Below are positions 16,031-17,834 of a stretch of 35,342 bases of DNA, piece after piece. The notes beneath the pieces are model-generated. The model saw nothing but the letters and a program-made list of their open reading frames with translations, ran no database searches and was not told the DNA's origin. How positions within the stretch are numbered: the stretch's first letter is position 1; each line of letters opens with the position of its first letter. Source of the stretch: a virus. The DNA lies in IMG/VR virus record IMGVR_UViG_3300042556_000041, positions 1 to 35,342 of that record, one strand, 5' to 3'. The position numbers and the translations under genes are program-made.

Positions 16031-16588
16031 ATGAAAAACATTGCAACCGCCTTAGTACAGGCACAAAAGGCTTTTGGCCCAGCTCTTAAAAGCGCCACAA
16101 ACCCGCACTTCCGTAGCAAATACGCAGACCTTGCCGCTTGCGTTGATGCTGTTATGAGCAGCCTTAACGCTGCTGGCATAGCCCTGATCCAGAAATGCTA
16201 CGACTGCGACAACGGAGTGATGGTGGAAACAGTCTTTGTCCACGAATCTGGCGAAACGCTGGAGTGCGGCATTCTCCATGTGCCAGCAAGCAAGCAAGAC
16301 CCACAGGGCTACGGCAGCGCACTTACATACGCAAGGCGCTATAGCCTCATGGCAGCTTGCGGCATCGCACCCGAGGATGATGATGGCAACAGCGCCAGCC
16401 GCCGCACAGAGATCAGGACAGTGGACGGGCTGACAGACCATCTCAGCGCCATTAATGCAGCCGCTGATGCCCCAGCGTTAATTAAGGCTTTTAAAGAAGG
16501 CTACGCCGCCTGTAAGGGTGATGAAGCCTGGCAAAACACAATCATCAAGGCCAAGGATGCCATGAAAAAGAAATTGGGAGCAGTCTAA
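16031..16588 (+). CDS. erf: ERF-family single-strand annealing protein
   Basis: This 185-aa protein shows the ERF pattern: AQKAFGPALKSATNPHFRSK near residues 11-30, KYADLAACVDAV, and the signature GSALTYARRYSLMAACGI then DDDGN at 95-120. It anneals complementary single strands with the adjacent exonuclease to join or circularise phage DNA. I chose the ATG at 16031; a TTG at 16019 that overlaps the preceding stop would add four residues. The C-terminal 65 residues form a helical tail. Its stop overlaps the exonuclease start. Confidence 0.92.
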   Translation: MKNIATALVQAQKAFGPALKSATNPHFRSKYADLAACVDAVMSSLNAAGIALIQKCYDCDNGVMVETVFVHESGETLECGILHVPASKQDPQGYGSALTYARRYSLMAACGIAPEDDDGNSASRRTEIRTVDGLTDHLSAINAAADAPALIKAFKEGYAACKGDEAWQNTIIKAKDAMKKKLGAV

Positions 16589-17193
16589 TGGATCAGCGCA
16601 CACCCGAATGGTTTGCCGCCCGATTGGGCAAGGTAACCGCCAGCCGCATCAGCGACATCATTAGCAAAACTCAGTCAGGCTACTCAGCCAGCCGTGCCAA
16701 CTACATGGCGCTGTTGATCTGCGAAAGGCTGACAGGCGCTGCTGCCGAGTCGTACAGCAATGCTGCAATGCAGCACGGCACAGACACTGAGCCAATGGCG
16801 TTGTCTGCGTATGAGGCCGCACAAGGCGTTTTAGTGCAAGCCGAAGGCTTTGTCACCCATCCGTCAATTGAGCAGTCTGGGGCTTCTCCTGATGGCTTGG
16901 TGGGCGACTCGGGCTTGATCGAAATCAAGTGTTTGAACACTGCCAACCATTTGGATATTTTGCTTGCCAAAAAGATGCCGACAAAGCACCGGCCACAAGT
17001 CCAGTGGCAGATGGCCTGCACAAGGCGGCACTGGTGCGATTTTGTCAGCTACGACCCGCGACTGCCAGAACGACTGCAAATGTTTGTTGTGCGCGAGGTC
17101 TACGATCCTGTCTATGTGGCAGGGCTGGAAACTGAAGTGGTTAAATTTCTTGGCGAGATGGAAAGCAAAATTAAGGAACTTGAAAAATTATGA
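16588..17193 (+). CDS. YqaJ / lambda-type 5'-3' exonuclease
   Basis: This 201-aa nuclease begins with the family signature TPEWFAARLGKVTASR (residues 5-20). It carries HGTDTEPMALSAYE (63-76, Glu68), SPDGLVGD (100-107, Asp102) and LIEIKCL (110-116, Glu112 and Lys114), the catalytic set of lambda exonuclease and YqaJ proteins. It digests one strand from duplex ends to make substrates for the ERF protein beside it. Length is normal. Start and stop overlap both neighbours, so the three recombination genes are coupled. Confidence 0.93.
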   Translation: MDQRTPEWFAARLGKVTASRISDIISKTQSGYSASRANYMALLICERLTGAAAESYSNAAMQHGTDTEPMALSAYEAAQGVLVQAEGFVTHPSIEQSGASPDGLVGDSGLIEIKCLNTANHLDILLAKKMPTKHRPQVQWQMACTRRHWCDFVSYDPRLPERLQMFVVREVYDPVYVAGLETEVVKFLGEMESKIKELEKL

Positions 17194-17453
17194 AATACGA
17201 CATTAAATTTGCCGCCCGTGAATACGAAATGCAAGGCGAGAAAAAAACATTTTGGACTACGCACGGCACTTTGTGGATTGACGGAGATAGGATTAAGATA
17301 AAAATGGAAAGTCAACCTGTGAGCAAAAACTTTGAAGGCTGGTTTCATTGCTTTGAACAGCGCCCATTTGAGCCAGAGGCTTACATTGCCCCGCCCCGTC
17401 CTGTTCGCACTGACAGCGGGTTTGATGACATGAAAGACGATATTCCGTTCTAA
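17190..17453 (+). CDS. Small SSB-like protein with acidic C-terminal tip
   Basis: This 87-aa protein has a beta-rich body with FWTTHGTLWIDGDRIKIKME near residues 21-40 and GWFHCFEQRPF near 49-59. A proline-rich linker leads to the end GFDDMKDDIPF. That last segment closely copies the acidic tip of bacterial SSB proteins (consensus ...DDDIPF), which recruits exonuclease I, RecO, PriA and others. It follows ERF and exonuclease directly (ATGA overlap). I infer a single-strand binding or SSB-mimic role; the body is too diverged for me to prove an OB fold. It probably gives phage recombination complexes access to host repair partners. Confidence 0.75.
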   Translation: MKYDIKFAAREYEMQGEKKTFWTTHGTLWIDGDRIKIKMESQPVSKNFEGWFHCFEQRPFEPEAYIAPPRPVRTDSGFDDMKDDIPF

Positions 17454-17459
17454 TATTTT

Positions 17460-17512
17460 GGGGCAGCGCTGTGCTTCCCGCAGTTGCCTGGCGCGTAAGT
17501 CCCCTTTTTTTT
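17460..17512 (+). terminator. Intrinsic terminator inside the early operon
   Basis: GGGG (17460-17463) pairs with CCCC (17501-17504), with an inner GCGC/GCGC stem (17466-17469 with 17491-17494), followed by eight T residues (17505-17512). It separates the recombination genes from the downstream small genes and could reduce or gate their expression. Confidence 0.65.
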
Positions 17513-17522
17513 AAGGCACATC

Positions 17523-17834
17523 ATGGACTACAAAGACGTTTTCAAAAAGATTTTCCCATTACCGGAATTTCCACGGGTGCGTAATAGTGACCCAGCAACA
17601 TCACATGAGGCGGCAGCATCCATCACAGATGTCAGCTCCCACTACGCTCAAATTTTGGAAGCGCTTTCTACGATTGGGCCTTTGGGCAAGGATGGCATCT
17701 CGTTTTACTCACGGCTTGACCCTAACCAGATTTCCAGGCGCTTGAAAGAAATGCAGAAACTTGGCCTGATCCGTTTGACCGGCAAGACAGTGAAGTCAAA
17801 CTCCAATCACCCAGAAAGAGAGTGGACACTATGA
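17523..17834 (+). CDS. Winged-helix DNA-binding-like protein
   Basis: This 103-aa protein contains RNSDPATSHEAAASIT (residues 20-35), a motif common at the start of a phage winged-helix group. A helix-turn-helix with IGPLGKDGISFYSRLDPNQI then SRRLKEMQKLGLIRLTGK (about 51-87) ends in a beta wing. It probably binds DNA as a regulator or helps replication initiation, but no catalytic site is visible. It follows the internal terminator with AAGG a few bases before the ATG and overlaps the next gene by 4 bp. Confidence 0.75.
   Translation: MDYKDVFKKIFPLPEFPRVRNSDPATSHEAAASITDVSSHYAQILEALSTIGPLGKDGISFYSRLDPNQISRRLKEMQKLGLIRLTGKTVKSNSNHPEREWTL

Follow-up and report, generated by a model that had tools for sequence, protein, structure and literature searches.

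The 87-residue protein encoded at positions 17190 to 17453 of the window (the whole stretch of viral DNA that was analyzed, 35,342 nucleotides of IMG/VR record IMGVR_UViG_3300042556_000041) is probably a minimal phage analogue of the single-stranded DNA-binding protein (SSB), of an undescribed family, whose gene is translationally coupled with those of an ERF annealing protein and a lambda-type exonuclease. The genes concerned and the parts of the protein are the following:

16031 to 16588, plus strand: ERF-family ssDNA annealing protein (PF04404, E 3.6e-22; phrog_2324, E 6.1e-42)
16588 to 17193, plus strand: YqaJ/lambda-type exonuclease (PF09588, E 1.2e-25; TIGR03033; phrog_149)
17190 to 17453, plus strand: SSB-like protein of 87 aa, made of a beta domain, a linker and an SSB-type tip (ORF, homologues, iterative HMM family)
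17190 to 17360, plus strand: residues 1-57, predicted folded beta domain (AlphaFold2 with 59 sequences, block pLDDT 74-94)
17361 to 17417, plus strand: residues 58-76, Pro-rich, variable linker, predicted disordered (low pLDDT; indels among close relatives)
17418 to 17450, plus strand: residues 77-87, SSB-type acidic tip GFDDMKDDIPF (kept in relatives, enriched over controls)
17523 to 17834, plus strand: small winged-helix-like protein (weak MarR-type matches; phrog_1123, E 2.6e-10)

The first three genes are closely packed: the ERF stop codon shares one base, at 16588, with the ATG of the exonuclease, and 4 nt (ATGA) are common to the end of the exonuclease gene and the start of the SSB-like gene. 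These tight junctions indicate that the three genes are a coupled unit and, together with the PF04404 and PF09588 matches, they bear out the coupling to ERF and exonuclease claimed in a preliminary description of this DNA. Dozens of homologues, whose linkers differ by indels while the tip persists, support the reading of the SSB-like ORF as coding. The winged-helix-like ORF has similar counterparts 3′ of the gene following the exonuclease in three related loci (L067, L069, L087), and its product is possibly a fourth member of the operon. The stretch of about 70 bp that separates it from the SSB-like gene (17454-17522; GGGGCAGCGCTGTGCTTC...GCGCGTAAGTCCCC and then a T-run) is near-identical in most close relatives; a structured RNA was considered here and rejected, the folding energy being ordinary (z +0.7). 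Elsewhere in the window, on the minus strand, the gene at 12477-12917 matches phrog_858 (starvation-inducible transcriptional regulator, E 3.4e-29), and we read its putative product, by its sequence, as Dps-like, whereas the gene at 13876-14505 matches phrog_3704, annotated as ferredoxin (E 4.4e-71), yet has no Pfam match, so that this annotation deserves a check.

The identity of the gene that follows the exonuclease was read in loci picked by similarity to the window exonuclease (80 loci fetched, with 53 unique exonucleases having enough downstream sequence), so that the counts describe this group of relatives and not all phages. With family identities assigned on representatives, the position is occupied by the window family in 28 cases (including L084 and L086, whose ORFs begin further upstream), by phrog_18154-like proteins, annotated as single-strand DNA-binding, in 15, all of them tipped, by OB-fold SSBs in 5 (including L093, L100 and L116, which the script had labelled 'other'; PF00436 was found for L093 and in the contigs of L093 and L116) and by other proteins in the remaining 5. 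The position after the exonuclease is an SSB slot, exchanged among the window family, a PHROG-annotated ssDNA-binding family and the OB SSB of PF00436. The association is also seen from the side of the SSB-like protein: among 80 loci retrieved by a tip-blind search, that is with patterns lying in the folded domain only, in 67 the gene comes immediately after that of an exonuclease homologue, and in 69 an ERF gene is present within 4 kb. When the window family and the phrog_18154-like family are compared by hhalign, the alignment is limited to the last six residues, which indicates that the tip is common to both families without detectable homology. Homology over the domain is not supported, since phrog_18154 finds no match in the window (E. 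coli control positive) and hhalign supports the tip alone.

A profile search of the window, positive in 10 of 14 control genomes, found no PF00436 SSB, and none was found either in the six deposited phage genomes that carry the window family or in another 24 virus contigs carrying it (27-35 kb, possibly incomplete); two contigs whose slot holds an OB SSB, searched along with the 24, were both positive. A search of the window for DUF669 (PF05037) gave no match, though no control genome was positive either, and as the DUF669- and Enc34-type searches had no positive control, the absence reported here is that of PF00436 SSBs.

These results bear on the choice, left open in the preliminary description, between a minimal SSB and a mimic of the SSB tip. 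A mimic without DNA binding would use the beta domain as a scaffold on the exonuclease or ERF, while its tip would draw ExoI, RecO, RecQ and PriA to phage DNA or off host SSB. Such a role would agree with the retention of the tip in almost all phage members, with a domain that is small, unrecognized and tip-less on plasmids, and with the tight coupling of the gene to that of the exonuclease. However, the exchange of the family with genuine OB SSBs and with an annotated ssDNA-binding family suits a mimic less well, and one would expect a pure mimic to occur now and then in a phage that also encodes an SSB, but canonical SSB was not found alongside. We therefore regard the mimic as somewhat unlikely, and the minimal phage SSB, strengthened by the slot and by the failure to find canonical SSB in these phages, as the leading reading.

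The candidate minimal SSB belongs to a family with two branches in viruses. Every relative with the window's own signature (52-100% identity) came from an IMG/VR virus contig, and bacterial genomes searched in the same way yielded no copy of this close family. A second, larger branch emerged from the reading of the slot (MSKxYEIxVxxGxYxxKDGxEKxRYxxIGSxIxTKxGxMLKLDxxPxxxGGWxGWAY...) and is present in at least 578 IMG/VR stretches. An iterative HMM unites the window proteins, the larger branch and small plasmid proteins, and hhalign relates the window branch to the plasmid family (P0001 relatives) with a probability of 83% (E 8.7e-6). As to profile databases, phrog_18187 (function unknown) is hit by 28 of 59 proteins of the wider family but not by the window protein itself, which has no usable Pfam, PHROG or NCBIfam match; no Pfam model was found for the wider family. 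Matches below the Pfam cut-off, to NMB1110-like_C (E 0.013), DUF736 (E 0.021) and DUF4352 (E 0.028), were set aside; for DUF736 (PF05284), profile comparison by hhalign gave a probability under 5%. No prior description of the family was found in the literature searched, and the best reading is that of an undescribed, widespread phage SSB-like family.

Among GenBank phages, tblastn with the window protein returned nothing, and a relative used as query retrieved 11 records. In Pseudomonas phage PS-1, gp11 follows RecT and an exonuclease and ends in DFSDDVPF; the member in a TM7 phage ends in LSEIPF; that in a Microcystis phage lies behind Rad52 and carries LEDDVPF followed by 12 residues; and that in Shewanella phage ZP9_08 has a Q-rich linker and lacks the tip. 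The relative in ctDrO704, deposited as a single-stranded DNA-binding protein, comes after an Mgm101-like protein and an exonuclease, with one small gene between. In Bordetella phage PBb001 (L280:2489-2818), the neighbours of the member are a helicase gene on one side and a primase-type gene with a CHC2 zinc finger on the other, and the protein has a Q-rich linker and a YDDDIPF tip. A replicative SSB is laid out in this way, which suggests that the member has this role in PBb001. Finally, tip-less homologues occur on conjugative-type plasmids (L041-L052, for example L042:1802-2020), where several have a NusG-like gene upstream and a VirB1-like transglycosylase gene immediately downstream; their function is possibly ssDNA-related.

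The deposited relatives also help to weigh a second alternative, in which the protein would be neither an SSB nor a host decoy but an accessory subunit that serves the exonuclease or ERF as a processivity or assembly factor and whose tip only docks it on a partner. A gene position immediately after the exonuclease, as in 67 of the 80 tip-blind loci, is what one would expect of such a subunit, as are the widespread small size and the lack of a match to known DNA-binding families. On the other hand, the PBb001 member keeps company with helicase and primase-type genes and not with an exonuclease, the tip resembles the tails of bacterial SSBs, sampled as ...DDDIPF, and the slot is common to real SSBs. 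An accessory subunit thus seems quite unlikely.

The window ORF, on the plus strand, ends in ...SGFDDMKDDIPF, and its tip carries a net charge of -3, against +1 for the beta domain. The preliminary description had recognized in this 87-aa protein a tip of the SSB type, and rightly so: the ORF is present and, among unique homologues collected by the tip-blind search, 56 of 61 finish with an acidic tip ending in F. The same feature was found in only 7 of 1,489 control ORFs (unique, unrelated, at least 100 aa, from the surveyed loci), a share that would be somewhat higher for real genes given the non-genic ORFs among the controls, the count of 7 being unaffected. Moreover, these seven are all SSB-slot proteins: four are OB SSBs and the other three belong to a different family of the slot, L100 having been placed through its sequence similarity to L093. 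Shuffling the composition of the window protein yields a terminal [DE]xPF in 0.16% of cases. Linker length changes by up to 13 residues among close relatives, and GFDDM[KPDE][DS][DS][IY]PF is retained. The tip is found in 79 of 89 viral homologues as against none of 34 plasmid/genome homologues, and therefore tracks the phage recombination setting and not the domain as such.

The tip also occurs on proteins of other kinds. In L016, a PF00436 SSB located after ERF remnants and an exonuclease frame ends with the identical 11 residues, GFDDMKDDIPF. In L018-L023 a different protein ends in FDDMKDDIPF, and in L018 and L020 it is encoded downstream of a Walker-type ATPase, which we read as a putative Sak4-like protein, as in phage HK620. 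An unlike protein of 98 aa (L017:4752-5048; phrog_24909, function unknown) likewise ends in GFDDMKDDIPF. Conversely, the tip is missing in a few phage members: L066 has no terminal motif, and in L081 (4614-4832) a stop codon falls just before the tip, with tip-like residues continuing in frame after it, as seen by comparison with the close relative L083 (4425-4685). These two losses indicate that not every lineage strictly needs the tip. Separately, an otherwise similar operon has an 88-aa ORF between ERF and the exonuclease (L015:4133-4399), and its slot protein has no tip either. That the tip is a functionless acidic C-terminus is extremely improbable: acidic C-termini are present in many proteins and some members have lost the motif, but the excess over controls, its persistence through linker indels and its sharing by unrelated families of one slot establish that it is not a chance product.

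The domain that precedes the linker was modelled with AlphaFold2. An initial model based on 11 close sequences (pLDDT 56) was replaced by one built with 59 sequences, which predicts four strands (residues 2-14, 17-31, 34-39 and 52-56) followed by a low-confidence tail; the mean pLDDT of the successive 10-residue blocks over residues 1-60 is 89, 83, 93, 94, 74 and 87. The preliminary description had looked to AlphaFold for an OB fold, and this expectation is not supported by the predicted four-strand domain, a monomer model with no PDB match. The search of PDB folds with the predicted domain returned nothing above noise and no OB or SSB chain stands out, although absence from such a list excludes nothing; the BFVD matches are uncharacterized phage proteins. 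Matches of A1 to HIV gp120 among PDB sequences (E 0.59 or worse) were taken as chance. What the protein does have in common with canonical SSB is a conserved acidic C-terminal tip behind a linker predicted to be disordered.

As a minimal SSB, the protein may act as follows. Where phage DNA is broken or replicating, the exonuclease would expose ssDNA, which the small beta domain would hold or coat, probably in oligomeric form. The flexible linker would then present the SSB-type tip, which could recruit the ERF annealing protein, perhaps the exonuclease and, secondarily, host proteins that are partners of SSB. Both the holding of ssDNA and the recruitment through the tip are proposed by analogy with three cases: nearly 80% of the erf genes in phages of Firmicutes have ssb as a neighbour, the commonest pairing (PMC8093625); the HK620 SSB depends on its six-residue tail NDYPPF to load and stimulate the annealing protein encoded next to it (PMC5928155); and RecT-type annealing proteins are stated in PMC10711431 to recognize the last seven residues of SSB. 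More tentatively, the domain of about 57 residues may be a small non-OB ssDNA-binding fold common to phage recombination/replication operons and conjugative plasmids, from which phages would make an SSB by adding a host-type docking tip; the tip, and not the DNA-binding platform, would then be the conserved functional part of the slot.

A concrete, testable candidate function is thereby offered for an abundant family that occurs in at least 578 IMG/VR stretches, has no Pfam or NCBIfam model and is of unknown function in PHROG. Judging from the comparison of the slots, small domains of several unrelated kinds may be able to act as phage SSBs, provided that they present the SSB tip. This bears on the loading of annealing proteins and on the poor porting of recombineering systems between hosts; a phage's own tip protein, supplied with ERF and the exonuclease, could widen the use of recombineering in laboratory strains.

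Compared with known systems, the window protein resembles the OB-fold SSB (PF00436; phrog_44) in its acidic tip, whose 11 residues are identical to those of the L016 SSB, in its disordered linker and in its operon slot, but it has no PF00436 match, and its predicted four-strand domain of about 57 residues differs from the recognized OB fold of about 100. The SSB of HK620, of the DUF669 type and encoded beside Sak4, is similar in that a phage SSB gene adjoins that of an annealing protein and in its short acidic tail ending in PF (PMC5928155); however, at 21.3 kDa it is larger, and its partner is Sak4 instead of ERF and an exonuclease. The plasmid proteins (P0001 and relatives) have a homologous domain, but all 34 plasmid/genome homologues are tip-less and several adjoin VirB-type secretion genes instead of lying in a recombinase operon. 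Finally, the phrog_18154 family (slot proteins L092-L121) shares with the window protein the slot after the YqaJ exonuclease, a similar size and the same tip, whereas its profile similarity to the window family is confined to the last six residues.
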